A stretch of 64,000 bases of DNA from contig OY727093.1 in the NCBI GenBank assembly GCA_963402885.1, positions 12,163,501 through 12,227,500 on the forward strand. The letters are read 5' to 3'. Below, in pieces: positions 12,101 through 63,100 of the stretch (positions are counted from its first letter, which is position 1; every line of letters starts with the position of its first letter). The position numbers were made by a program, and so were the translations under genes. Below the pieces are notes generated by a model. The model saw nothing but the letters and a program-made list of their open reading frames with translations. It searched no databases and was not told the origin of the DNA. Origin of the DNA: Antedon bifida (Eukaryota; Echinodermata; Crinoidea; Comatulida; Antedonidae).

Positions 12101-15100
12101 GATATTATGTTGAGAAGAGAGACATTCAGAGTACACAGTGGACTATTATTAATAGACAACCACAGAAAGAGTGTACTATGCAAGTAGAAGAACTTAGACA
12201 AGGACATGAATATGAGTTTAGAGTTGCTGCAGAAAACAAAGCTGGTCGTGGAAGATACTGCACTTCTGATTGTATCAAGTCCAAACCACCTTATGGTAGG
12301 TAGTAATAATTTAAAGTCCATAATGAATAATGTAATAAGTATCAACAAAGTAACCTCTGTTCAAAGTTGTTTCAATCAGAAAATATTAACATTGTAATTT
12401 GTTTAATAGTAATAATAATTTTGTTTATAGATGCACCTGGTAAACCTGTTACTCCGACTACCAGTAATGTTGATAGTACTTCACTGACCGTGAATTGGGA
12501 GCCACCAAAGTCAGATGGTGGATCTCCAATCATTGGTTATATTGTTGAACAGAAGGATCGATATAGTACAAGATGGGCTAGACTAAATGCAGAGCCAGTC
12601 AAAGATACTACATTCAATGTAACTGGATTGGAGACTAAGGGTGAATACCAATACAGAGTTATTGCTGTCAACAAAGCTGGTGAAAGTGCTCCAAGTGATG
12701 CCACTAATATGGTTGTTGCTAAACCTCCATATGGTAATTATTATCTTGTCAATTTTATGGATACTGTGTAGATTTTATGAAGACAGTTTGTTACCATGTG
12801 TTGTCAGTTTTATTAACCAATTTGGTGTCCTTAGCTGTATTTTATAATTATTTTGTTCTTTTAGATGTTCCTGGAATCCCAGGAGTACCAAGTGTCACTC
12901 GGGTCAAAGAGAAGAGCATAAGTGTTCAGTGGGGACCAGCAGACGATGGAGGCAGTAGACTTCTTGGTTATTTTGTAGAAAAGCGTGAGATGTTTGGTAC
13001 AAGGTGGATACGTGTAAATCGAGAACCAGTTCTTGAGACAGAATACTGTGTTACGGGCCTAATGGAAGAGTCAGAGTACGAATTCAGAGTAATTGCTACA
13101 AACAAGGCTGGAGAAGGTAAACCAAGCCAATCTAGCATTGTGGTGAAGACTAAAGCATCATATGGTAATTGTATTACTTATTTTGATAGAAATTATAGGA
13201 TTATCAATAGTTTGATGATATATAGCAATAGCAGGGCTGTCGATACGATAAACATACTATTTTTTGAATTTTTTCGCAAGTATTCTCAAATGTACTACGT
13301 CAGAGTAGGGCAAAACATCTAATCACTCAACTCCCTGACGCAAAACTACAATTACAATCCTGTTGGTGCAGTACTCGCTGCTTACTTGGGCTTGAATCTA
13401 ACCACTAGCCATCAGCGCAAGCTCGGTGGTCTAGAGGTATGAACGCCAGGCTAGTGATCTGGAGGTCGTGGGTTCGAGTCCCACCCGAGAACTACTTGCG
13501 AATTTGTTCGCAAGTATTCTCAAATGTACTTAGTATAAAGTACATATTACGTCTGAGTAGGGCAAAACATCTAATCACTCAACTCCCTGATGCAAAACTA
13601 CAATTACAATCCTGTTGGTGCAGTACCCGCTGCTTACTTGGGCTCGAATCTAACCACTAGCCATCAGCGCAAGCTCGGTGGTCTAGAGGTATGAACGCCA
13701 GGCTAGTGATCTGGAGGTCATGGGTTCGAGTCCCACCCGAGAACTACTTGCAAATTTTTTCACAAGTATTCTCAAATGTACTTAGTATAAAGTACAAATT
13801 ACGTCAGAGTAGGGCAAAACATCTAATCATACTATTTGATCTTTATAGAATTAATAAATAGGAGGTGGATGTCCTAAATCTATTCATATTATTTAGAAAG
13901 AAAAAAATATATATATATTCAAAAATAAAAAACTTTGTTTGAATTTGTAGGTTTACCTGGTGCACCAGGAACTCCAATGTTATCTGAGGTTTCAGCTACT
14001 TCAATGACACTTAACTGGGCTTCACCAGATTCGGATGGTGGTGCACCCATTACAAATTACGTAATTGAGAAGAAGGATGCTGTGGACACTTGGACCAGAA
14101 TCAACCGATGGGATGTCTCCGTGCCCTCATTTGTTGCTAGTAGTCTGAAGCAAGATCAAGAGTATATCTTCCGTGTGTCTGCAGAAAACAAGGCTGGAGT
14201 TGGAAAACCCAGTGAACCATCACGACCAACAATTTCTAGACCACCATACAGTGAGTTCTAGATTATATTCCAGTGTGGTATATAATTCTTTTTGAGCAGT
14301 TTTGTACATTTGTTAAAATTTAATTTTTAAATGTATATTTTTTAATAGTATTATATCAACTAATGCCAATCATTTTTAAAGTAAAGGTGTTACTGGTAAT
14401 TCTTTAATACTTCATTAAATGCTCTCATACAAATGTGTTAAATTATTATGCTTTCAGTTATAAAACTCATAGCTATATTACTTTGTCCAACACAGATGTT
14501 CCAGAAAGCCCAAGCGTACCAATAGTGTCAGATATCCAAGCTACGTCTGTGACTTTGACATGGACACCACCGGCTTCAGATGGTGGAAGTCCAATTACAG
14601 GCTACATAATTGAAAAACGAGAAACAAACAAGACTTGGGTAATGGCAACCAGAAATCTTGTTCCTGGTACAAAGTATACAGTTACTAGCCTAAGACAAAA
14701 TGCAGAGTATGAATTCCGAGTTACGGCAGAGAACAAGGCTGGTACAGGAAAGCCAAGCCAGCCATCAGAAGCAGTGATTGTGAAACCTCCTTATTGTGAG
14801 TTGTTACTGATATTGTGTGAAATAAAGCAAAGATGTTGAAAATAGCTTCATGAAGTTTATACAACATATTTGTGTATTCATTAGAAGTAATGATTAATTA
14901 TTCTTACAGCTACCCCAAGCGCTCCAGAAACATTAGTGTGCTCCAACATCAACGCAACCACTGTTACCGTGACATGGGAAGCACCGTCAGATGATGGTGG
15001 TTCACCAATTACTGGCTACGTTCTGGAATACAAGCAAGACTTTGGATCTCGTTGGATTAAACATCCAAAAAGTATTACAGGAACTTCTCATAACGTCCAG

Positions 15101-42100: not shown

Positions 42101-45100
42101 CTAAATTATGTTGCTAATATTTCTGATAGATTGAGGAGGGTTCCAACTCGATTTGGACAGAAATTGCCGAGGTTAATACAACATCTCACCATCTCAGTAA
42201 TCTTCAACCAAATACGGAATACAAATTCCGAGTTAAAGCAGTTAACAGAAACGGCTGCGGTGCTGTCAGTAAAACATCGAAACCTGTGACCACAAAAGAC
42301 CCAACAGGTGAGACTTATATTCAATGTTCATCTATCGATGTATCACTTGCCAATTGAAACCTCTGTTTATAGCGACAACATCATTGACTTATCTATTCTA
42401 TTTATTTGTTTTTCGATTCACAGATGATGAAATTAAAACGCATGAGAAGTGGGTTAAGCCTTACTTTGAGACAAAGATGAGTAATGTTGAGGTCGTTAAA
42501 GGCAAAGAGATGAGATTTGACTGTGTTGTTAAAGGAACACCAGTCACAGACATCAAATGGTGTGTTTTTTTTCTATCATATTTGTAGTCGACACAGTTGC
42601 AAACGTATGGAAACCGAATTATGAAAGTTGGTATACAGGTTCAGTGGAAGGAACCATTAGTAGAGATAGAAGTTGTTTGTATAACGTCTGGTCTACTGCA
42701 CTTTGAAACAGTTATACTATAACTTTATTAATTTTATTCTATTTAGGTTTAAAGATGGAAAGGAATTAACAGACAGTCGACGTTATCAATTTGCGCAAGG
42801 TGTCGAGGTGATCAGTTTACAGATCGCCAAATCTGAAGACGACGACGCCGGAAACTATATTTGTGGAGCAGAAAACACGGCTGGAATAGCATACTGCAAA
42901 GCACATGCCGTTATTAAAAGTTAGTTATAATTGTATACATTATAATTATTACTGTCTCCGATATCGTTAGATAATTCAATTAGATGTTGCTTTATTATGA
43001 GAATATGACAGGTGATTAATATACGAAGTCCAAATGGGATAACATCACGATTACCAACTGTATCCAGAATTTTAACATTTACAACAAATTATATCTATAT
43101 TTGACATAGTTATTACTTTAGTCGTTTGATTAAAAATAAGCGACTTCAAGCTGCTGCCCGTAAGCTTGAAGTATGCAAATTTAATCTCACAATAAATAAA
43201 TAAATTAGTTAGTTTAAGCAAATTAAGCTACGTATGTGGTAGCTCTCTTTTGTTTTGACGTGTTCGTAGACGCAGACACATCCGGACATTTAATATAAAA
43301 TAGTAGTAATTATGCAGTAATGGAATCCACAATTCAGGTATCGAGATTGTTTGTGTTTGTAGTAAGCAACAATACCGTAGTCATTATAAATTAAAATACA
43401 TAATTTTAAAATAGTATTTATTGTTCACCGAAAATTGATTAGTAAATAAAAGTGCAATTACACAAAAAGGCTTCGTTATGTTATCGTCAGAGATTTTTTT
43501 TTCTCAAAATGACCAAAATATACACATTTCAAAATTAAATTATATTACAGATGCACGTATAATGTCATACCATAATTCTTAATACTGTTATTACTGTACA
43601 TACTTTTTTTAGAAAATGAAAATCTTTTCCAAATATAACCATCAATCAAAATTCACTAACATTGTTATATGTGCACGTATATCATCATCTTATGGTGTCA
43701 TAACCAATTTGTATCAACAAATAAGAGGATAAACATTTACTCATTTTTCTTTAAATATTCTTTTACTATTATTATTACTATGCTGGGATTTAAACGGTCG
43801 AAAATTGGTCATTTTTCGAAAAAAAAATCCCTGTACTAAAATATGGCTATATATGCGCATATATTGCTCTTGTATCATCTTATAGAGCCATAGTAACCAG
43901 TTTTGTCGAAAAATAAAAGGGTCGAAATTTTGCCATTTTTTGAAAAAAATCCCTGTACTAAGGCCTACAGAGATTTTTTCGAAAGATGCCCAAAATATCG
44001 AATTTTTTAAATGCAATTATTATGCGATAATATGGCTACATATGCGCATATATTGCTCTTGTATCATCTTATAGAGCCATAGTAACCAGTTTTGTCGAAA
44101 AATAAAAGGGTCGAAATGTTGCCATTTTTTGAAAAAAATCCCTGTACTATTAGTAGGCCTACAGAGATTTTTTCGAGAGATGCCCAAAATATCGAATTTT
44201 TTAAATGCAATTATTATGCGATAATATAGCTATATAATATGCGCATATATTGCTCTTGTATCATCTTATAGAGCCATAGTAACCAGTTTTGTCAAAAAAT
44301 AAAAATATGCCTAATTATTTTGCGATAATATGGCTATATATTGCTCTTTTATCATCTTATAGAGCCATAGTAACCAGTTTGTCGAAAATAAAAGGGTCGA
44401 AATTTTGCCATTTTTGGAAAAAAAATCCCTGTACTATAGTACAGGAATTTTTTTCGAAAGATGCCCAAAATATCGACTTTTAAAATGCAATTATTATGCG
44501 ATATTATGGCTATATATTGCTTTGTATCATCTTATAGAGCCATAGTAACCAGGTTTGTCGAAAAATAAAAGAGTCGAAATTTTGCCATTTTTTGAAAAAA
44601 AATCCCTGTACTAATAGTACAGGTATTTTTTCGAAAGATGCCCAAAATATCGACTTTTTAAAATGAAATTATGATGCGATAATATGGCTATATTGCTGTA
44701 TATGATCATATATTGCTTTATAATCATCTTATAGTACCATAGAAACCATATTTTGGACATTTTTTTTAGAAAAATTGGCAAATTTGAGCTATTTATTTTT
44801 TTCAAATATATAATTAATTTGTCAACACCAATTGGTCATGATACCATAAAATGTTAATAAATTAATTTTGAAAAGTGCCTATTTTTATCATTACATTGAA
44901 TAAATTCATCTGGTTCCAAATAATATTTTTGTGGATTTTTACTTTTATGTTGAACCAAAGAAACGATAAGGAATAAATTACCTTCGTGACGTTTCGTTCC
45001 AACCCAGGCTTTAGTCTGAAGCAGCTGACAGATTGTCGGCGAAACGTCACGAAGGTAATTTATTCCTTATCGTTTCTTTGGTTCAACATAAAAGTAAAAA

Positions 45101-48100
45101 TCCACAAAAAAAATATTTTTATCATGTTTTGAACAAATCCCTGTAAACATAAAATGGTCATACTACACAATTTTACAGATATATATATATGTTTATATTA
45201 TAATTTCAGTAAATACCATAATGTATTACTAAAATGCAATTTCATACAAGAACACTTCAGGCTTCAATGATAGTTTCTTCTTTCAAACCTAAACAAAAAT
45301 CACATTTGTTTTTATATAAACATATAATAATTACAGAAATGTTATACGTGTATTCAAGCATTGTAAGACAGTGCTTACCATTAATAATTCCTTTCAGAAT
45401 ACGAGTATCACCAACTTGATCAGCAATTTCACTCACAAAAAAACGAGCCACACCCATTAGCAAGCTTCCGTCATACATAAACACATTGACGCTGTTAACG
45501 TCACTATATGGAATGTTCAGATACATCTCGAATCCACTGATGCCACACCATTTATAAACGTGTATTTCACCGAACTGGCTAAGAACGACAAGATATGGAG
45601 TGCCTAGAAATATACAACAAAAAACTCGTCTAAAATGTCCTATAGCATATTAATAGGTTTTCCCCCTTTTGGGTGTTCCCACATTTATTTACTGTAGTAG
45701 AATTAATTAAAATAATAGTTAATTCACCGTCTACACTAAAGCTATCTAGTCCAATAACGCCTTGCCCCTCGAACTCGGTTATTTCCGCCCATTGCTCGTC
45801 TTTAAAACATACTGTTACGACAGGCATATAGTAATCTGTAGTATCATCATTGTTTCTTTCAGATGAGGACACTACGCAAGGCTGACCATTTATTTCTATG
45901 TTAACGACATCTATGTATTCACCAGAAATCTGATGCTGCAGCTACAAAAACAAAACATCATCTCAATTAAAATAAAACAAATAAAAATATGAACACTTTC
46001 TTAACTAGATATATCTAAAAAGGCCCAACTTCCTAATTGGAAACCTTTTCCAAGTTGACTAAAAGGGGAGACCAGTTGAAAAAACATCGGTAAATTGCAG
46101 AAAGCCAGGGAAGAGTGAAATTACAATGTTTGCATTTTTTGTAGAACGTATACATAGGGCTTAATTGTGTAAAATAAAAAAATGTATTCAATGAAATTAA
46201 TGTAGGTCTATATAAACAAAATATATAATTACCTCAAAATTCATTCCGGACCATTGATAAATATCAGTTGTTGTAAGACCAGTTTCCAACTCAGAATCGT
46301 AATAATTGGCAAACACTAACCAAGGATCATAATCATCATGCTCAATAAACAGAACAGTGATGGCGCCTTGTGTTACAAATGACTGTTCTAACACGAATGA
46401 TTTATCCATTCTGCTATATAGATATAACCCTGAATTTACAACACTTGATCCTGTTTCAGAAAAAAAAGTATTCAATATAACAGTAACTTTCTAATTAATG
46501 TGAAATTTATTCCTAGGCCTAAACACTACATTACCTGTAACTGTGTCTTCCGAGTTTGCAATTGCCAAATATAAGCTTCCATTTATTGTGATCATATCGC
46601 TGTCAATTGGAGTTTCCGATGATATTTCAGCTAATATGAGATCTTCTTCAATCAGTATTACACGTGTAACATTATTGTAATCGACTCCTTCTGTGCAATA
46701 TCCAGATTGGATACTTCCAGTCAACACTAAGAAGGTACTCGTTTCATCGGGTGTTTCAAATGTAAAGGAAAACAACTGTGCAGTTGAAGCTGGAATTAAG
46801 CCTTCAGTCACCTGTTACACAGAATAATAACGTGTATAGTATTATAGACAGATTATATGACACAATGCCTTATATGTATCGCATTTAATATAATACATGT
46901 ACCATGTGATCAATATTTTTTATTAGTACACTGTTTACAAAATGTGTTTATGATACTGGACACTACTAGACAGCTAAACTCGGGTGTAAATTACTACGAA
47001 GTTGAATAAGTACTTGGTTAGAAGGCACTCGTTTTTGTTTTACAATCAATGAACAATATATACTTGGTTGTTATTTCCAACCAGATGGCAAGACTTTGGT
47101 TACTTGTGTTTCATTATCTTTTTTAAAAAAGATAGTGAAACACAAGTAAAATACTGTTTTAATTACAATTTAATGTAGACACAGTATATAGTTTCATATT
47201 ATAATAAGTCCTATCCAATCATTCTAATACCAGTCTGTTAGGCATACTAATTTCTAGTATTGTGTGCATAAAATTAGAAATGAAGATTATTACCAAAAAG
47301 CACGTGTCTTGGTCGTCATCGTACATGTATAGAGCAGATTGTATACATTCTTCAGAATATTGGTTTTCGGTAACACTTATCAACAGCGTGTCTTCATACG
47401 CCACTGCATAGATTGTAGCAACATCGGTTCGGTTGATAGTCTGGTAGTCCTCAAAGTAGCCGAATCTGACGGCTTGAGCTTGAATAATTATTAAGCAATA
47501 TTTATTCGGGTGGTGCCTTTACAAGGACCATATACGTTTTGAGAAAATCAAACTATAACATACAATACAACATATTATTTAAATGCTACCCAGATAATAA
47601 TGTGAAAAATATCATTAAACCGATCATTAAATAGTAATTAAACTTACTTTCATCATATGCTTCTTCGAGTAAATGTATTGGAAGACACTGAGTACGTAAT
47701 GAAGAATTTACTTGTATCAGGTCACTTTCAATCCTCTCCATGTTGCTGTCAAAATTGCTCAACATATCAGACAGATCAACACCAAGTACATAACCCGTAA
47801 CTGTAATATTTCCCGTAAAGGTAAGACCTGAGCTTGTAAAGTGCTGTAAACAGATACATATACTTGCTTATCATGTATTTATTAATAATGTAACAGTGAA
47901 GATTTATAGCTAACGCATAAATGAAATTCTGAGATTTACTTAAGACGTTCTGTGTCGTACCTTATGGCCTGAAATTTGAGTTGGTACATCATCACGTACA
48001 GCATGTGCAGCGTAGTACACTGGGCCTAAGTAGTCAATGTATCCGTAGTAGTCGGTATACATATCACCAAGAATATTCACATCAACCGAAAAATTTTTAT

Positions 48101-51100
48101 ACCCTCCGATATCTTGGTCACCGTATGTTAGAACTACATCAGTAGACAGGTTAAATGTATTCACCAGACCGTGTACAATCACATCATCTAAAACAAAATG
48201 AACCAATTATTTCATTATCTAAAGAGGGCAGAGACTACACTGCCAAAAACATTTGCAAATTTACTCAAATTATAAAAATTGAGAAAAGAGCTGAGAGCTT
48301 AGGCATATACTCACCAAATGCGTTGACATTACCGATTGACCACGTTCCTGTTATGGTTTGTGGTGTTGATAACGTCACCCGGTTTGCTACTGTAGAGTCA
48401 AATGGTACAGTATCCACATCGTTCGTAACAGTTGTATGGTCGAGAAATTTAACACTTGCAAATGTGTTGAGAGAACCAGTTAACGTTTGCGTAACGTTCT
48501 GAATCACAAAATCGTTTGGCATGGAAAGGCCGTTTATTAAACCTGAAATGGCGAAAAGCAACACTTGTTATATAACTAATATTATAATTAAACAATACAT
48601 TATCTCCACCAGTACGACTCTTCAACACCTCCATCAACCACCACTCACTTAACAATGCAAATCCTTTACCTGTAACAAAGAAGTCACCGTAAACTATAAC
48701 ATCATGTCCAAAGATGACGCGTCCGTCAATTGATGCATTTTCAGATTGGAGCACGAGTAGATCTAAAATCATTTTTAATGTCAAGTTTTCATAGACTATA
48801 TTTCCTTCAAAATCACCGTCGATCCATAAATTATCAATTTCAACGTCTCCAGTTACACTTTTGTTGCCAGTTATAGTCTAAAAAAATATATATAAGATAG
48901 ATTGTTATATGCAATTTCATAAATGAAGCCATATTTCAGACTGCGACAGAATCTGGAGCTTAAACTTGCAAATTGCTTTCTTATTTTTTTTAATTATTTC
49001 ACTTTAAAATGGTAGTGAATTTTCAGGCTTATACTAAAACAGAAAGAAAGCATTACGGTTGATTCTGAATATAAAACAGCATCATCAATTATGAAAGAAA
49101 TGTTTTCTCCGTTGACATGATCGTTGAACCAAGCGTCATCTTCAATATGAAGGAATCCTTCGAATGTAACAGATCCTTCGATGGTCAAATTTTCGTTGCT
49201 CAATGCGTTGTTGAATAGATCTATAATATTGAATAATCACACACATCACATAAGATTTTGTTATACAGTAGTAATGCTTATGTGTGTTGCCGCGGTAAGT
49301 CAAATATTATTAATAATACGGTATGTTGTTTTTCTTCTAACCTGATAGATCTGTTCCATTAACAGTTCCATTCGAAACAAGATCACCGTCGACATTCAAA
49401 CCATAAAACTGTTTTATACCATCGATAACAATCAATGAACCGGACACACGAACGGCCCACTCATCATACTAAATAAAAAAAAATGCAAATCAGAGTAAAG
49501 GTCAATTCATACCGTATGGTACTTTAAAACTATTTCCACGAATATGGCGTTCCATACCAATTTAATATTATTCAATGTGAATGAATCATATAATTTTGTT
49601 GCATACACTAACATCATACCTCAGTGATATTGAATCCACCTATTAAACCTTTTATCATTAAATCACCATCTATCATGATGTTAGAAAATGTCATAGGAAC
49701 TTGAATATTATAATCATGGTCGATTAGGATAACATTAGATATGTCAACTCCATCAATGAGAATACTATCTTCTAATGAAATAGCATCTGTAAAAAATGAA
49801 ACAATAGCTAGTGTTGTAATTGTATCCACACTGCATTAACTAGCATCTATCACTTGGATATACATACATACATAAAGCGGGACATTTAAATGAATTACGG
49901 TACACGCTTTCATAAACAGAAACATGCGGACCATGCGTTACGTCTTTACTTTGAGGTGGAGAAATGTTTTACTGGAATGCTCGTAATCGCCAAGCACGGG
50001 TACGTATCCTAAGTCCAAGAAAGGCCTACCACTTCTACAAATAACTTTAGTGAGCAAAATGTTGTGGGTGTAAATTACTCACCTGCTGAAACATTCATAA
50101 GGAATACCTTACTACTATTAATATATTGGTCGCTGTACTTGGATAAATGATTGGTATAAAGTTCATGAATGTATATATTATCTATCGTTCCATCTACATA
50201 CAGATCACCATCTATCGTAACATCACTGTAAATTGTACATAAAACTATTTTTTAGTTATAAAAAAACGTCTGTCTACATTCTTAATGGATGAATTAGGAA
50301 AGAAACATTGGATGTAATGTATCACAACATTTCGGTCATAAATCAAATGAAATAATTTATAGTTATGCTTGATGCATGCCTTTCGTGAACATCACAAGAC
50401 ATAATATATAGATGAATCAAGACGTATACTGGCAATAATATATAAACCTCTCATACCTCGAGAATATCTTCCTTCCTCTAATTTCTTCATCTGTATTGGT
50501 ATAAACTAATCTTTGAGAAAATTCGTATAACTTTATCCGGTTGACTTTGCTCAAAACCGAAATATTTCCGTAAAAATAGGCATCAGACTCAAACCTCAAA
50601 TCGGCTGTAAAAATAATCAAGAATTGGGTTGGTAACACAATTCTATTTTGGAAATAATTGGATCAAGCATCCTCTCTGTAATAAGTTTGCATCAACAATT
50701 TCTTTCTCATTTTCTTTACTGATTTCATCTTCAGACGACACCATTCACACGAGTTGGTTTCTAATAATCCTAACATTACGACAAATACAGGCTTTTTAAT
50801 ACGATGTTAAATTACAAACATGATTTTTTTTAACATTCACAACCATACACATAAAAAAATACAGCACATTCACTGATTTGTATTACAGATGTTTCCTCCA
50901 AGCAAAGATACTATATTTTTATTTTGCATTTTATAATTTTAACTTACCATCAAATGACTCGTCCGCCGACAACTGAATTGCGTTTAGATACAAATTGTCT
51001 ACATCTACACAATTAATAGTGCCTTCAACCAATACACAAGCATCAACTGAATAAGAGAAATCAAGTAACAGTAATCAATAAAACTACAACATCCATCAAT

Positions 51101-54100
51101 CACATTAGGCTGTTGGGGTCGGCTAGACGTAGGAGGTCTCCCGATGTGGTGACAGATACCGTGGCTTAACCGAATTTCAATAAAATGAAAGTCTCATTAT
51201 TATGCAATACCTGAAACATTCTGTGTAAACTCTTTGGTACCCTCGACGGTAATATTAGAATCTATACGGACAGCTTCCTCGTCCAGTTTTGTGATGTTCA
51301 CTCCATTGACAAAACCATCAACGGTCACATTGTTGGTTGATAAATTCCCTCGAAATGTTGCATTATCCGTAACAATAATGTCCCCTGCAAAAGAGAAAGT
51401 AACGTGATAGTTTGAATCGGTAACATATATTTGTATTGTTACAGTATTGCCAGTAGATGGTTATTCGAAATGATTTTGCAATGTACCATACTTATATACT
51501 TATACTTATGATTGAATATTGATAGAATACTAACCATATATGATTTGATCACTGTTCAACGTTACAAAATCTTCAGAAATGTCGCACTCGTTGACCGTTT
51601 CACTAACATGAATGTTTTTGTAAACTGTTACGTTTCCTATAATCTCTAAATTGCCTAGTAATGTTTGATTACAGTTTACCATCAAAGCCTATAAAGAACA
51701 AAGTATAAACGGATTTCAGTTGAGAGCTACACGTGTCGAGTCACATGCGCACGGTCAAAAACATACTTGTTTACCCGAAAGCTGCGCAATTCGAGTGACG
51801 CGTCGTGAAAAAAGACTTTCTTTAACGAAGAAAAGAATTGAATTTGCTATCAGTACATACTTTGTCGTAAAATTCCGACACATCAACATAATCGACGGTC
51901 ATGCCTTCTTCAAGAAACAAACTTCCATTTATGTGCAAGGAATCATTAAAAATCAGAAACCCTGAAACAAAAATACATTTTAGTTTTACAAGGATCTCAT
52001 TTTGATAAATTAATATGCAAGTGAATACATACGCAATTGAAGACGAGGAGATAGAAACCGTGTATAGGTTTACGGGCTAGTCTTATGAAGGAGCATTTTA
52101 GTACAGAAACGTATTATCCTACCTGTGACGTCTTGAGGGGAATTAAGTGTTACAAAGTCTTCTAGTCGTTGACCATCAAAGGTGCCCGCAAGACTGATAC
52201 CGCCATCCATGGATATGACACCGTCCAAGATGACATCAGACGTAAAGGTTATGTTGTCCGAAACGCGGAGTGCTTCCTGGTCTAGCGTGGTGATATTTAT
52301 TTCGTTGATAAGGCCATCGACTATGAGAGATCTTTGAACTGCGGAAAAGTATTTAACAATTAAGAATAAGAATACAGTTGGAATATAACTTTTTTTCATG
52401 TCACTGCCAGAGCTACAGCTAAAATATAACTGCAGATATGGTACGAGGTTGACTCATTTATTTACATGCCGTTTTCGATGGTGAAGAATTTGTAGAGAAC
52501 ATTGATGTCAAAAATTATGTTTGAGGCCATGCAACAGTCGTACTAAAGCCGTTTAGGCTTTATTTATTCACCCTGGCAAGTTGGTTTTATGGCCACAGTG
52601 GGTAATAACCAACTTACCGGGGTAAATAACTAAGCCTTAGTGGAAATGACAATTAAACAAAAATTCCATCTTACAATGAACGTCGTCTATAAAGATCTTC
52701 AGTCCCACGATGTCGGCGTTTTCATCAATCATGATAGTTCTGTTGTAAAGTTCACTTAAATCTTTATTATTGATTTTACTTTCATACGGTAGAATGATAT
52801 CACCATTTACACTGAATCCATTTGTAAAGAACACCGGCCCTATAAGACGAATATGTATTTATAATAATTATTCAAAATGTTGTCTAATAAAAAGGATACG
52901 ACTTAAATATACATAAAACTATTCATAATCAACTTTATTCGAATTTGCACTTTCGAAATATGGGTAGTACAGGCTCATTTTTGTAATCTGGAATTATTTG
53001 CAATAGGAACTAAAGTCAGTCATACTGGTAATAAGGGCACACTTACCTTCAATTTCTTGGTCTGCATCGAGTAAAACAAAGTTTTCTGGGCGAACACCAT
53101 TTATTGTATAAAACAAAGTCACGTTTGATTTAAATGTTATATTATTAGTTGCCAACAGATCACTATATATTGTTTGGCTACCGATCGTTCGAATAAGATC
53201 TTCAGATATATCTATACCATTTAGTTCATTAAGCAGATGGAGATTTTCGAATGTTGTAAGCGAGCCTAGTAGATTTTGAGATGCTGGAAAAGTAAATATC
53301 GTGAAAATAATAACTTGATTTTGTTATCGTATTAAGAAATGTAATTATGTTGAACTAAACAGAAAATAAAAGACAGATTTAAACTGAAAGGCCACAAATG
53401 ACATCGACTTGAAAACTTATTTTGAAAGTTTCTTAAATACTGGCGAATTGTTCAAAATGGAAACGTTTGCATACCACACATGCAATTACCAAACTCTTCG
53501 ATGTCAATAACACTCTCGAAGAAATCCATTAAAGCAGATAGCTTAACCAATTCGGCGTCTTTTCGAAATGTACAATATTAGTACAATGTTTGAATGAAGT
53601 ATTTACCATTACTACTTACAATATTCACTCTTGACAAATTCTGCTTCTTTAGAATGTTAAAAAAAGGTGCATAACACGATTGAGGGCTCAATTATGACCG
53701 AGGGAGGCAGGATGGTCCTATTCCCAAATAGCCTCAATCGTGTCAAGTTGACATTTCTCAAGTTCGATATTTAATCTATTTTATCCTCGATACAAATTGT
53801 AATATGTAAAAATCAATCGCAATTCTGTTTTACTGTGCAGATTATTTTTAATAAATATACCATTATGAATGAATGAATAATTTTTGATTTTCTTTAGTGC
53901 CTCATTACGCGTCATTTAGATTTAAATTAAAATATTCATGAATATTGACAAACCTTCTATAACAACATCGCCGTGTGTCTTTACAACATTCTTAAATTTA
54001 TTGATATTTGTTGAATCTATATGGCCATCCAGGATTAACAGATTATCAAAATATACATCAGCTTCGAAAACAACGTCATCTTCCAGTATAATATCATCCG

Positions 54101-57100
54101 ATGTTAAGAATACAGAATTTATAAACTTGTAAAGGTCAATCTAAAAATCAAACATTTGTAATTATGGAATAATTCATGCCATTCAAAATTAAAATTAGTG
54201 ATTCCTTTTCCACACACACCAACAGCGACAACCCAGCCAATTGGATGGAGACAATAAAAAAATAGTAAATGATAAGAAAATGAAGCACAAAAATTGAATA
54301 TATAATTGTAATATAAACATAATCTGTTGCAGGGTACTATATACCTTACCCCATTCATGGTTGTACCTAGAAGCATATCAGCACCGTCGAGGACTGTCAC
54401 GTTACCCCAGAATGTCTTGTTTCCTTCAATGTATTGATGATCCTTTGTCATTATGACCAATTCTTCAGGAATATAAATCCCATTAAGAGTGCCATTCAGC
54501 GCAAGCTCGTCAACATGCACATCCGTATCAAATTGTATATCGCCTATGTACACCTGGCTACCATTGGTTATAAGTAGATAATCGTCTGAAATTTTAGTTT
54601 ACAATTTGTCATGATACTGTATAGGCAGAATACAGTATGAACAACACAACTAAATAATTAATTCAAATTAATGAATGAACTTTATTTAAAGTATAGAAGA
54701 GTATGTTCTATTGTCTTTTTGTCAAGTGGTTGTTTTATGCTTTAAATTTTTTTTTGTATTTCGAGTCTTTTTATACCGATTAAATAAAAAAATAAAAATA
54801 TATATAGGGTGATTCAAACAATGTATCATATAACACATATAGTAGGATTATGACGTAAAATATCACTAGGCCTACAATGATTCCAAAGTAACGATAGCAG
54901 TGTTTTTTTGTACCGTACTTTAACATTACATTACATGAATACACTTATTTCATCTGCATTCATGTGTACTTTATTCTTTACGCAACTATTTCTCATTTTA
55001 TCACAAAGAGTTGACAAAATAACAACCACAAAAATACAATAGAACTATATAAAAACAATGCAAACGACCGCAACAATTATACCTGGTATCTTATGTCCAT
55101 TCGCCAACCCCAAAACGAAGACACTAGCACCTGCAGTAACCGTCTCCGTAAAAGTTATATTTCCAAAAATAACCGCGTTTTCGTTCTTCTTAATTGAGAC
55201 TGAGTCGATATGTTCTATGTTGACTCCATTTATAAGATCATTAGTCGAGACAACAGAATCATTAACATTTAGACTGGTTACATTTAATAATGAATAAAAC
55301 GTGACAGTACCTTTAAAAACAAATTTGATATGTCATTAGATTTGAATAAAAATGATGGTGACTGAAGTGTCCGCCTAATTTTCATTTAAAACCGTCCACT
55401 TTCATTGCATAAACACAATCGCCATCATATTGCGCATACCATTATTCTCAATTATTTTTATATAATTTATGCAAAATACCAAATAGCTATTTTTTACTTT
55501 CCTGATATACAGGCCATTCACAAGACATACATAATATGACCCACATAAACAAGAAAGTCGCACAGAAGAAGTTGAGAATGGAGTTTTTTTTTATCATGGT
55601 GATGGTCATGGTCTATATAAAAAGTTCATAAACAAAATATTTATTAAATTATGACTTATATATTTTTAAAAATGAGACTTCAATTGCAAATCTTCTCGGC
55701 GCGATGCTAGTGTTAATATAATAGCTTACCTCTAACCAGCTGATCTTCAACGTACAATGAAACAAAATCCAACATTTCGGTTTCAATCAAATCTAAATTT
55801 CTTTCATGTTTGTTGAGTAAATATCTCAATAGGACTAAAGACTCAAGTGCAAAATAATCGGCAGTGAAATTTTCGACATAAAGCGTATTTTCAAATGTCA
55901 CATTCTCTAAATATGAAAAAAAATATTACAAACATAAAAAAAATTATATACTGTAAAGTAACAAATTTCTGATCAAACAAGAAATCGGTGTAATTTTAAA
56001 TAAAAAAATAAAAAATTATTCTTATATATCGAATTGTTACCGGTGAAACGGAGATTGCTGTAAATACTCTCGTTCTTCGATATACTAGCCTTCGTCTCAA
56101 GCTCCGTACTTAATTCTCCCAGGCGTTCAATGTTTTCTCTCATTGAATCCTTAAGTTCAGGAATGCTGCTCAATATTTCATGTGTCTCTTGTGTAATTTC
56201 TAAATAAATTAATAATTATCTTGTTTAAACACCATTGTCTTTGGCTAAAAGTGTATTTACTTTGCCTCCAGATAACTATCATAAAAATGATGCTAATTAC
56301 CTTTACTCTCATTCATAAAGTTAAACCAGTAGAAACTTGAGAAATCGGACAGGTCCGTCGAGTTTTCACCATATGTAAACAGTGTGTAGACGTTACCATC
56401 TAATTCAAACACAGACATGTCATGAATAATCGCTCCTCCACCAGAGCGCGCGTTCCACTGGGGAAATTGCTGAGTAGATAATACCCAGTCACCAGCATCA
56501 TCACATTCATATATGACTGCTCCTACATATGGCTAAAGTAATAATTGTAAATGTAGTATTAGACCAGGAAATGTTACCCGCCCATACTACCTACCGTATA
56601 TTAAGGCCTAGTCGATAATGGCAAATAGGCCTATATAAATATACATTTCTACAGGGGAAAAAGTGTCGCCTAAAAAATGGAGTTTATTGTATAATTGAGA
56701 TGTTTCATAAAATATTCTATGTTGTGAAAATAAAGTTTCTTGAATAAATATAATATATACGTACGTCTTCGTTGGCTACAATTAAAATGTCATCACCATT
56801 TGCCAAATGTACATATATTATTTCTTTGGCAGCCGTAGTCGGCAATGATTGGTATTCAAGTACGAGTTGCCCTGAAATTCAAAATAAGCACAAATTAACG
56901 ATGTGGACGACGATGACGGTGTGGACGACGATGACGATGTGGCCGACGATGACGATGTGGCCGACGATGACGGTGTGGCCGACGATGACGGTGTGGCCGA
57001 CGATGACGGTGTGACCGACGATGACGGTGTGGCCGACGATGACGGTGTGGCCGACAATGACGGTGTGGTCGACGATGACGGTGTGGTCGACGATGACGGT

Positions 57101-60100
57101 GTGGTCGACGATGACGGTGTGGTCGACGATAACAATTTGACCGACGGTGGACGGTGATATGGAAGGTAATAGTGATATGGAAGGCGATAAAGATATGAGA
57201 AGGGTAACAATGACAGAAATAAGGTGATGTACTTACCCGACCACCAGTAAATTGTAGAATAGGTTTCTTCATATTGAATTTGATCATTTTCGATTACATT
57301 ATTCGTGAAAGCAATAAACGTGTTATGATTCATCTTAAAAGCAGTCACACTTCTAGGAGCCGTAGTGGGTACAGTTTGAATAAGAGTGATGGATGGACTA
57401 TCTGTTTTAAAAGAGTGTACACGTATATTATAAAAAATCAACTATTCAGATGCGTAAATAGTGAAATTGTCCCGATATTCTAGCAGTCTATTAAAAAGAA
57501 TTAACTTACAAAGGTCTATCTTAAGAATAAGACTACCAATGTCATACTCGAATTCATCATTAACAAACTGAGTCACTGCAACGTACAATTCCTCGCCCAC
57601 TTTAAAAAACTCTATGTCCGTGGCACCATGCGTTTCATAAACTAAAATTTCATCGAAATAACTCTCCTTCCATTCGTAGATTCTAAAGAAAAATATATAA
57701 CTTTCAATATTGCATTATTAAGCTATGTTTAAACAGTATAGTTTAAGTAAGAAAAGGTGTTCGTACAAAAAAAAATGGTTTCAACACATTTTCACATAAT
57801 TATAGTACTTAAACCAATATCATTACAGCATCGATTGACAGGAGCCCAAATGGACCATTGAATATAATGTAGATATATTTTAAAAACTAACCTGATATCA
57901 TTTCTGTATTTAACATTTAGGTCTGATCGAAAATTTGCCACGCCAAAAATCAATATACCATGATATGTAATACAATCTATGGCCGATGCACCGTTAGTGG
58001 TAAATGTGAAAAAAGGTTCTGGTACTGAAGCGGTACCATCCCAGATATGTACAGTCGACCTGCCTGTGTACGATAGAGTATTTCCAGAGTTGAACTGACC
58101 AATTGCCGTAACTAAAAATACCACGGTGTTGTTCAATGGCAATATTAGTAAATCTTTAACGAAGGAAGCGTCATATTCCGATAATTTATTAGTGATTAGT
58201 CGACCATTGTCATTGAGAAACATTGATATCTCGGCTATATCTTCGTATGCATTAAGAATATAGGTGTTACTATCCGTTGTGAAACCCCTTGTTACACCTT
58301 CTGTCCATGCGTCAATGTTACTCTGTTCTATCCTCCACTTATTGTTCGTTGATACATCAAATACTGCCAAATTCAAATATACATAAAGTAATAATTGGTG
58401 ATGGAAAGATTTGTGGTGAGTCTAATTTCGGCAGTTATTTTCTACAAGGACTGTTATTCAAATACATAGCATATAATATGTCCACGGCGATTCAAATATT
58501 ATTTGAATCGCCGTGGACATTAATTGTCCGTAAAGATAACCTTAACATTTATCATTAGGCCTATAACAAACTATTTTTGATTTAATAACATACCGTCTAT
58601 ATTTCGTTTTTGTCGTGATCTCTCATTACTTAGCATAACCTTTGACAAATCGCGTTTGTATTCTTGCAGCTTTTCATCAAGAAAGTTACGAAACGATTGT
58701 CTAAACTCCATGGCTTCGGATTCAGTAAGTGTGACGGAGTGTGATAAAGTTGACATGCACATCACAAGTAACACGACAAAGTTTAAGTACGTCATTCTAA
58801 CAAAACAAAAATTATACACTTACTTATTGACGCCATATTGCCTTGTAAAAAAGTTTGTCAATACATTCGTATAACACTGTGTTTTCGATTGGCATTATAA
58901 CAAAGAAGATAAAAAATTATTATCCAGCTATATCGGCCTAATTTGCAAGATTTACCGTACTAAAAAGTATCCACTTCTTAATACCTAAGAGCCTAACTCT
59001 TACCTTGCTTGATTCCAGAAGACGTTGGATGCGTACGTATTGCACCAACTTCGCTATCGAACCAAGTGTTCAGTTTCCTCCTAAATTGTCCAGTGGAGTT
59101 ATTTATGCAAATTAAGATTACCACATGCCTTCGACCGTAACGTTTTTTCACAGCCAGACTTTAAAAATAAAATATCATTGGTGAAATGTAATCTATTTTG
59201 ATGATTAAAATAATAAATAAACACATTATAACTCTCTTGATTTATCGAGAATAATACGGTGAACAGTTAATGAATGTTCATTTCTCGCAAAGACAAACAC
59301 ATCGTAATCCTTAGCAAAAAATGTAAACATCGCCCTCAATAATAATTATGAATAGAAAAGAAAACAATAGTTAAACAATCAATAGTATCTTATTTACACA
59401 CTATTTTCTTCTGCGTGTGTCATTGGTTAGTTGGAACCTATCCGAAAAGCAGTCCATGACATTGCAGACATGGGTAAGCGACTTTAGTTTTATTTTTATT
59501 GTAATAGGCCTATATCAAATGTACATTTGCAACCCTACATGGTTTGTTGATGTATTTTGATTAATTTGCTTGTGAGTCTATGTAATATATATATATAATT
59601 TGATTATAGTCTATAACCACAATATAACTACGTTTTTCGTATTATATTGTTCATTCATTCATTTTCTTTATTTCGAATAGTACATCCAAAAAATCATACA
59701 AAAAAGAACAAAAAGAGAAACATTTTCACCAGAAAATTAACAATAAGCAACTTCCACAAAACCAACCTACAATATCCTAAAATACCAATTTGCACCAACG
59801 CTGATGTAGGTCGGATTGTGGAAATTATGATTTATGCTTCTTTTTTTAAATTAAGAGTCGTTAAAACGACTCTTAATTTGTTCTTGATATACAAACTTAC
59901 CGCAAACTAATTAGGGTCATATAATTTCAATTTCAAAAATACATAAATTACATCGAAACGACAGTTAAAATGTACATGGTAATTGCCGTTACAAAGTAGT
60001 AATTAATTGTTATTATACAGTGTTGTTAAAATAATACAGTTCTTCATGTTGGTAACAGATTCTATGGTTCACAAAACACGACACCTAAAGCCATACCACA

Positions 60101-63100
60101 CACTTTTGACAATTTTAGAAATCGCAAATATTTAAATCAATAATGACAACAATAAAGAACCTGAAACTAACTTTACCTTACACAATATAGCAAGTGGGGT
60201 AAAACTATACTATGGGTATTATGTTTTACAGCTTATTGTGAATAAAGAAAAAGAGATTATTTGTTTAGGATTGTGTTCGCTGTAGCTGTTATTCCATTGA
60301 GCTTGAGTGTGTATTTGTGTTAAGGGTATGGACATAATACATCAAAGAAATAGTTAGGCTAAGTAGCGTAGTAGTAGTTCTCACTCGATCTTCCCAAATA
60401 CTTTATACTTAAATCAACATGTTACACCGTAGGCTTAGTTAATTTTATGATAGAGATAAAAATAGAAAAACTAATGACTTTTTCGTGTGGGAAAATAAGC
60501 ATAAGTATTGTGGGAATCTTAAAATGTGAATAATCATTGTACGTAATACCTATTCATTAAACCCTGGTCCTATTGAAATTCCGATAAATCATACACATCC
60601 CATGTTGAAAACAAGGTATTCTCTGTGTTATTACAATTGGTTATAGCCCCTGTTCACCCAGCCAATCAATGTTACGAAGAAAACAAAAATCGCTTTAGTC
60701 TATAAACAACGTCAGATCACCGTTATTTATAAGATATATCTCCAATTAATAAGTATGGATTTGTTTAGTACATTAGCACAATATAATAATACTGATGATA
60801 CAAATAAGCAAATGTCTGTAATAAAACCATATACGGAACAATATTACGATATCACACAAAAAGAGAAGGGAAATCAACAATGTAAATAATTGCTTTTTAA
60901 ATCCTCTATTAATTTTAATTTAAGTTTCCTTGTAGGCCTAACTGTAAATAGGCCTAGGCCTATTGTTAAATCATTTTTTTTTGTTAACTTTTATTTTACT
61001 TACTGTATTATGGACGCACCTCATTCAAGAAGTGTGACACTGTTTCAAAAGTATTACTTTTGTTAATGTTATTTTTTATATCTTGTACATAATTTAGTTT
61101 AAGTCCTTGTACTGTAAATAGGCCTATTGTTAAATCATTTTTTTCTCTAACTCTTATTTTACTTACTCTGGACGCACCTTCATTCAAGAAGTGTGCCACT
61201 ATTTCAAAAGTGTAGCTTCCAAATAAATTATTATTATTAAATGATAAGATTTAAATTTGTTTAAATTGCTCAGTACTGTACATATATAATCTTCGGTAAT
61301 TGCCCATTATATTTCTCAGAAAAATCTTGATCGATGAAAGTGGGTAAACATTTACATAGATAACAGTATCCACTTATGGTCGGACACAAATTATTTATTG
61401 ATCTTAGTATGTTTATTCAAAATTGATATACTAATCCAAGTAAGTAGAATCCCTGTTATAGGCAAAGTCTCTCTTTTTATTCTGGCTCACGAAAAGAGAA
61501 ACAATGATTAGGCAACGCATGTAGAAATTAATGAATTAACTTTTTTGGGATATCCTTTTAACTCGAGTCTTATTGTTGTACTGACTTTTTAATTGTTTTA
61601 TAAATACAGTATGTTTATATTGTATGTATTTGTGTGAATCTGGTTAATAAAGTAAATCAATCAATCAATAAAATATAAGAGCCAGAGGCCTATGTACTGT
61701 ATGTCTGAAATAAAATCCATGAAAACGAAATTAATTAATTTATTGATTGGTTATTGACTTCAGTTCGTTTCACATGAATATGTATCCCAGCACTGTAATA
61801 ATCAATATTTCTTTTTTCGCAGATATGAATGAAGACGGATATAGGGCTAATTATATCGAAGTGAAATTATGTGAAGTCGACAAATACTATGATATTTTTG
61901 AAGAAATTGGGAAGTAGGTTTTTACACACATTTACTTTTAAGAGAGAAAGAATAGAATAGAAAGAAATAGATTATAATAAAAAAAACAGTGTAGAGTAAA
62001 TATAACATAGGAAACAGTTAGGCCTAACATACAAAATAACGTATAGGTGTGCAAACTTGGAAGAGACAATGCTAATATTAATCGCTGAAATGGTTCTATA
62101 TTTTAGATTATAAAATTATTTATAAAATTAGGGGTGTATACCTACTTACTCAAGATAAATCAAGATCTCATTATTAACAGAATCTGGTAAATGAATAACA
62201 ATAATCATCTGTACCGTTGTATTTAATTGGTTACATGTTCTTGTTGCATGACCAATTATGAAAAGAGTGATCGATCCACCTTGATTTACTATCGGACAGT
62301 GTTGATAATTAGGTATTATACACAGCCGATTAGTTGCATTCCTTATTAAACAAATTAATAATCGTTGTGTCTTGCACAACCTTGGTGGATCGACAATTGA
62401 GATACCAGTAGTTTACTGGATCGAATGTGGGTTATTGCTAGATTGAAATTCAATGTACAAGATATCTATTTTCAATCAATTTTTACATTATAGGTGTTTA
62501 TACAGATGTGAATGTGAATAGTTACGAATTTTAATATAAATCAGAATGGGTATAATTCAATTAATGTATTTATTAATAAGTTAGTTGCTTGGGTACCGAC
62601 TGTTAATCATTATAAGACTAAATATTCCAAGCACCTGTACCTCCTAAAATGTTAATAATTGTTAAATTCAATGGACCTCGTGCATGTAGGCCTAATGAAT
62701 ATGTTAGCTGCTTGGGTACCGTACACACGGTACCGTACCGTAGTCAATAAATAATACTAATTAGGCTAAATCTTTCAAAAATAGCTACCTCCTAAAATAT
62801 AAATTAAATAGGCTTAATTCGTTAATAAGTTAGTCATTTTAATAAAGAGAGAAAATGTAATCATTATAAGGCTGAATTTGGAAAGCTATACTAAATCAAA
62901 AGGTCATGCTGTTTTTTAGTACAATACACTTATATTTTGTATTTTACACCCAGATAATTCGTGACGCGATAAATGTTTTTATAGTCTGCCATGAATACCG
63001 CCGCTTTGTTTTCAAATTGAACGAGCGCTATGAAATAACCAATGATCGCATTGTTACCGTATCATCTTTATGACAATGCTTGATTAGTGCAGAACAGGCT

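Follow-up and report, generated by a model that had tools for sequence, protein, structure and literature searches.

A nested antisense gene in the crinoid Antedon bifida belongs to a widespread uncharacterised family with predicted EAR propellers at both ends and may point to a trimeric egg-coat scaffold

Among the described proteins with EAR/EPTP repeats, TSPEAR and ADGRV1 each possess one EAR cluster, which is combined with a laminin-G-like part in the former and with Calx-beta and 7TM parts in the latter. The necks of phage receptor-binding proteins (RBPs), which provide a second point of comparison for the present study, are trimers. LGI proteins are described as having a single propeller after a leucine-rich repeat (LRR) domain. 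Nasrat, Polehole and Closca are three secreted proteins reported to form a heterotrimer in the insect eggshell, which is once worded as a complex that they are thought to form (PMC10576393); they are described as oocyte-secreted (PMC6303783, PMC10697589), with each needing the others (PMC6303783), and fs(1)Nasrat and fs(1)polehole have been termed two related genes (PMC3639227). Here we analyse a window of 64,000 nucleotides from the crinoid Antedon bifida (contig OY727093.1, positions 12,163,501 to 12,227,500, assembly GCA_963402885.1), the minus strand of which carries a gene for a predicted secreted protein with EAR/EPTP repeats at both ends of a long repeat stalk. As judged from sequence comparisons, this gene is no one-off but falls within a widespread family of uncharacterised proteins. 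Its architecture is undescribed in the literature that we searched, in that the titles and abstract openings of the top-ranked open-literature matches yielded no described double-EAR protein.

The gene model was obtained through a splice-aware search of the minus strand with codon and splice-site scores, and was then corrected by inspection. The raw output, with 36 exons and 2,096 codons, was similar to the final model; two tiny exons and one exon of 69 nt were dropped, and one acceptor and the start codon were shifted. The final frame runs from 58795 to 45257 and comprises 2,081 codons including the stop, with GT/AG borders at all 32 introns and consistent phases throughout. This rebuilt 33-exon model is identical to the one put forward in a preliminary description of the locus. 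A hydrophobic leader, MTYLNFVVLLVMCMSTLSHS, starts with the earliest ATG in the opening frame and agrees with the secretion that had been proposed for the protein.

When the protein database was queried with the window protein, with the N-terminal part of the Asterias protein and with the Nicrophorus protein, we recovered at least 13 relatives (5 from echinoderms and 8 from arthropods), all of them without a functional name. This range is a lower bound, because scoring in two of these searches was confined to the candidates that shared most words with the query. Uncharacterised relatives of 1,980-2,380 residues were found in Asterias, Patiria, Acanthaster, Antedon, Diadema, Nicrophorus, Ischnura, Oedothorax, Stegodyphus and Procambarus, with about 16-21% identity to the window protein. 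All 10 of these show at least one match to the EAR profile at each end (domain E <= 1), some of them very weak, and the stalk repeat is common to them. The architecture, which was regarded as new in the preliminary description, is not peculiar to the window gene, as echinoderm and arthropod proteins and two further genes of the same genome display it as well. In the Diadema relative (P0001) the stalk is interrupted by a NIDO domain (residues 897-1084), and this part of the protein also has several matches in the Antedon bifida genome, on C10 and C13.

A family profile was constructed from 11 relatives, including the 10 listed above and excluding the window protein itself and two proteins of odd length, P0012 (3,268 residues) and P0013 (1,490 residues). 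It matched the window protein in a single colinear domain over residues 23-2074 with 692.8 bits; the top score among 50 shuffled versions was 1.1 bits, and that of the reversed window protein was -37.4. Restoring the dropped 69-nt exon lowered the score from 692.8 to 662.1 bits. Each half of the protein matched its own half of the profile (311.9 and 366.0 bits), and at least 87% of the residues fell in profile columns for 30 of the 33 exons, the remainder being exon 1 (66%), exon 6 (83%) and exon 33 (33% of 9 residues). Given the one colinear match, the matching of both halves and the coverage of the profile exon by exon, the exons belong together. At the level of sequence this confirms that the locus encodes one real gene, as had been proposed, and not the exons of two or more.

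The Pfam EPTP model matched the window protein with 44.9 bits at the N-terminal end and 45.6 bits at the C-terminal end, in both cases above the cut-off of 21 and in keeping with the repeat type that had been assigned to the two ends. EAR/EPTP repeats are thus shared with LGI, TSPEAR and ADGRV1; among the Pfam matches up to E 10, however, we found no LRR family, no laminin-G/thrombospondin-N domain and neither Calx-beta repeats nor a 7TM region. Membership of the LGI family was rejected on the missing LRR match and on the presence of two EPTP regions with a long stalk in place of a single propeller, and membership of the TSPEAR and ADGRV1 families on the missing matches to their respective domains.

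Our local EAR profile detected four N-terminal and four C-terminal repeats in the window protein (domain E <= 1); the corresponding numbers are 6 and 7 in Patiria and 2 and 1 (weak) in Procambarus, and P0012 has none at its C-terminal end. Profiles of the end regions of six relatives retrieved human LGI1 as the top match in PDB (E 2.4e-16 for the N-terminal and 9.9e-9 for the C-terminal end). Profiles from the relatives were needed for this, as a single-sequence search of PDB with the N-terminal 503 residues of the window protein gave no match at E <= 1. In single-sequence profile comparisons with the relatives, the match of the window protein was weak at the N-terminal end (125 columns, E 1.4e-5) and strong at the C-terminal end (382 columns, E 4.2e-11). 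Structures were predicted for the two ends of the Asterias relative from five-row alignments, and the window protein was aligned onto these models. Their mean predicted local distance difference test (pLDDT) values are 63.6 for the N-terminal part (59.5-63.6 over five models) and 59.5 for the C-terminal part, for which the remaining four models fell well short (50.0 down to 36.1). The propeller regions lie mostly at pLDDT 70-90, apart from a low patch in the C-terminal one, and the stalk regions mostly below 50. Each propeller region has 28 listed strands, and in Foldseek searches the top seven matches were to LGI1 at each end (best E 1.1e-14 for the N-terminal and 6.4e-16 for the C-terminal part), with a TM-score over the target of 0.78-0.83 for EPTP-only LGI1 chains. 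The Asterias ends are accordingly modelled as seven-bladed, LGI1-like propellers, and for the window protein the same reading is by strand alignment only, with its residues aligned at 28/28 (N-terminal) and 26/28 (C-terminal) of the model strands. The propellers foreseen at both ends in the preliminary description are therefore borne out in models of a relative of the window protein; its estimate of about seven repeats per end agrees with the strand counts, but the repeat profile detects only four and four. By homology, the EAR repeats at both ends of the window protein are predicted to form LGI1-like propellers.

The stalk between them is typified by a 40-residue repeat with the consensus TITGNKTFTGDVTVEGNLTVDGLVNGVDLSELANDAVLTN, for which 26 matches were obtained in the window protein (domain E <= 1), several of them weak; the first (residues 496-515) falls in exons 7-8. 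Pfam Bactofilin matches the protein just over its cut-off (30.2 bits against 27.9), and BppL_N, at 8.9 bits, lies far below its cut-off of 25.8 in the window protein and exceeds it in three asteroid relatives. A profile of 25 stalk repeats searched against PDB recovered the necks of the phage TP901-1 and related receptor-binding proteins (nine sequences, E 4.9e-5 to 8e-5), with a match spanning 22-24 residues, or about half of the 48 positions of the repeat profile. The start of the repeat is alike in the phage neck (TP901-1 BPP) and in the stalk consensus, TITGNKTFTGDVTVEGNL. The listed phage alignments, in contrast, have one scoring copy, against about 25 copies in the window protein. The chain counts of the matched phage entries are 1, 3, 4, 6, 18 and 54. 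A long repeat stalk had been described correctly, but its repeat, which could not be named at that time, is nameable after all through its resemblance to the neck repeat of phage receptor-binding proteins. Since such necks are trimeric, this resemblance points to a trimer and not to a lone dumbbell.

Searches of the genome with P0002, P0001 and P0003, in which the best candidates were scored, revealed three members, namely the window gene (on C1), a gene on C10 and a gene on C11. This number is a lower bound, and no further full-length member was found among the best candidates scored for P0001 and P0003. At least three paralogous genes are thus present, as for Nasrat, Polehole and Closca. The C10 gene was recovered as 28 pieces matching residues 168-2128 of the Antedon mediterranea protein P0004 with 65-98% identity (80-93% for 20 of them); the first 167 residues, in P0004 numbering, were not located in the stretch searched. 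The C11 gene (L028; C11:17758447-17764632, minus strand) has an intact, uninterrupted frame of 2,062 codons, which matches the family profile over residues 286-2044 with 645.3 bits, and is possibly an old retrocopy. Introns number 32 in the window gene, at least 27 in the C10 gene and none in the C11 gene. Three of 30 intron positions are exactly common to the window and C10 genes, against 0.18 expected from shifts; at a tolerance of at least 3 columns, however, the sharing is not clearly above chance (p 0.11-0.29), and it is therefore weak evidence. Two other EPTP loci were noted in the genome and judged by eye, one on C7 (L011) with WSC- and EGF-like frames and one on C15 (L013) with Calx-beta-like frames, which resembles ADGRV1; they were set aside because tblastn searches with 7 relatives and the window protein gave no match to them at 1e-4.

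With midpoint rooting, the main tree (13 rows) showed three groups. The first unites the asteroids, Antedon, Oedothorax and three insects (100/99), the second Diadema, the C11 gene and Stegodyphus (95/95), and the third the window gene and Procambarus (92/92). Under this rooting each group mixes echinoderm and arthropod rows, although the first is not established as a clade because the root is the midpoint only. When either the window gene or Procambarus was removed, the remaining one kept its place beside the second group, and an earlier tree, which included P0012 and lacked C11, recovered two pairs, Diadema plus Stegodyphus and the window gene plus Procambarus (80/87). This pattern suggests that there are several old copies of the family.

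The reading that we prefer, with a probability of about 0.4, is that this one gene, with its leader, EAR ends and repeat stalk, encodes a chain of a three-chain fibre that builds an extracellular coat. A furin-type protease would cut the propeptide upon secretion, the stalk would wind three chains into one fibre, as in the phage neck, so as to present three propellers at each end, and the propellers would bind partners and thereby build or anchor the coat. The likeliest site would be the egg coat, with the three paralogues supplying the three chains. The motif R-x-[KR]-R occurs within the first 150 residues in 10 of 14 family rows, being absent from P0008, which is annotated as partial, and from P0009, P0012 and P0013. 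The egg reading draws support from the way in which the phage likeness of the stalk, pointing to trimers, meets the three paralogues of the genome. The leading hypothesis is that the window family and Nasrat, Polehole and Closca constitute one family of trimeric egg-coat scaffolds. It is conceivable, though rather doubtful, that the three crinoid paralogues wind around each other by their neck-like stalks to form a heterotrimeric fibre with a trio of EAR propellers at either end, and that this egg-coat scaffold is the deuterostome counterpart of the insect Nasrat-Polehole-Closca complex, from three genes predating the protostome/deuterostome split. In a table for Litopenaeus vannamei (PMC4659196), the label OB, which we read as ovary-biased, is given to polehole-like transcripts (743.69 and 1017.81) as well as to an EAR repeat-containing transcript (11552.92), and a Penaeus monodon transcript matching a polehole precursor is reported as expressed specially in the ovary (PMC7040003). 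These shrimp transcripts are no more than putative members of the double-propeller family.

Several observations weigh against the egg-coat reading. The evidence connecting the family with Nasrat, Polehole and Closca is circumstantial, consisting of number, secretion and range, and the pea aphid is reported to be without fs(1)N and fs(1)ph; moreover, homology between the eggshells of insects and the egg coats of echinoderms cannot be taken for granted. The phage similarity is short, at about 24 residues, such that convergence is possible, and some of the chain counts of the phage entries (1 and 4) give no trimer by themselves. The stalk is of low confidence in both Asterias models, which would fit an obligate trimer but also a shallow alignment. 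Finally, the tree is rooted at its midpoint only, its second and third groups lie on long branches, and the N-terminal 285 residues of the C11 frame fall outside the family-profile match.

Of the competing explanations, the one that survives best is that the protein acts in adult tissues as a soluble or matrix bridging protein, with single dumbbells that would join two receptors, or two matrix ligands, in the way that ADAM22/23 are linked by LGI1. Bridging of two ligands, which had been conjectured from the outset, is a tentative possibility: the family is LGI1-like at either end, LGI1 itself has been described as a secreted protein that serves as a linker and has ADAM22 as its receptor, and there are solved PDB entries titled as the LGI1 EPTP-ADAM22 complex. 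The neck-like stalk, with the trimers that it brings to mind, and the shrimp entries pointing to the ovary nevertheless argue against lone adult bridges. It is unlikely that the protein is some other extracellular matrix component, of the skeleton, cuticle or an adhesive secretion, and unrelated to eggs: the leader, the 47 N-glycosylation sequons and the repetitive stalk would suit such a role, but the arthropods with family members are not known to have an echinoderm-type skeleton. The term EAR repeat-containing does occur in a paper on the coral skeleton, in favour of such a role. That the frame is an artefact, made of the joined exons of two genes or of a decayed pseudogene, is very improbable, for although the model is based on genomic sequence and the gene sits on a long tree branch, the family match over residues 23-2074 is single and colinear with both halves matching their own profile half, there are no internal stops and every intron has GT/AG borders.

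The plus strand of the window carries a giant FN3/Ig gene. Pfam searches of its hand-joined fragments detected fn3, I-set and Pkinase (215 bits), and in PDB the joined kinase comes closest to MLCK family member 4 and twitchin, followed lower down by death-associated kinases and after them by titin, by which the host is classified as a twitchin/titin/MLCK-type gene. As the last detected Ig exon of this gene ends at 42919 and the next exon found lies at 61823-61913, the minus-strand gene is nested antisense within an intron of 18,903 bp, in agreement with the preliminary description, and the flanking host exons are of compatible phase. Extra small host exons may lie within this intron. Two tRNA-Thr (AGT) genes are present on the plus strand within the giant gene (window 13420-13492 and 13672-13744). 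In the nested gene itself, intron 4 contains an 18-bp minisatellite of 14.3 copies (window 56898-57156), and the last intron could be retained, giving a product of 2,110 residues, because its 90 nt are in frame and stop-free. Just 3' of the stop codon lies a near-perfect (97%) hairpin-like inverted repeat of 79 nt (window 44918-45118), and a degenerate tandem array with units of about 177-190 bp occupies window 43840-44748. The coordinates of the features are collected in the table.

Table. Features of the nested minus-strand gene and of its host gene, in window coordinates
Feature	Position	Strand	Remarks
Whole gene, start codon to stop	45257..58795	-	33 exons, 2,080 residues
Signal peptide, about residues 1-20	58736..58795	-	hydrophobic leader MTYLNFVVLLVMCMSTLSHS, read by eye; cleavage site putative
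Furin-type site RQKR, residues 61-64, directly before first propeller	58604..58615	-	motif R-x-[KR]-R
N-terminal EAR/EPTP propeller (predicted), exons 2-6, about residues 68-450	56301..58363	-	Pfam EPTP 44.9 bits; 28/28 model strands
Linker, exons 7-8, probably helical	55730..56199	-	from helices after the propeller in the Asterias model, H364-397 and H441-473
Stalk, exons 9-27, about 25 repeats of about 40 residues	47648..55310	-	repeat profile matches
C-terminal EAR/EPTP propeller (predicted), exons 28-32, about residues 1698-2070	45379..47478	-	Pfam EPTP 45.6 bits; 26/28 model strands
Last intron, 90 nt, in frame and stop-free	45289..45378	-	open reading frame 45257..45649
Host Ig domain region, two exons, upstream of intron	42423..42919	+	start approximate; reading frames; I-set 78.1 bits
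Host intron, 18,903 bp, holding the nested gene	42920..61822	+	donor and acceptor read; phases compatible
Host exon with kinase start (YYDIFEEIG)	61823..61913	+	compatible phase
Host kinase exon	63648..63851	+	kinase runs on past the window (L010)

The relatives of the window gene, none of which bears a functional name, span echinoderms and arthropods, and the stalk would mean that animals employ a repeat known from phage tail fibres. Should the egg-coat reading prove true, the anchor proteins of insect terminal patterning would gain both a structure and a deuterostome relative, and the origin of the animal egg coat would become testable. The window gene is one member of an old animal family, as yet uncharacterised, whose proteins may form egg coats.

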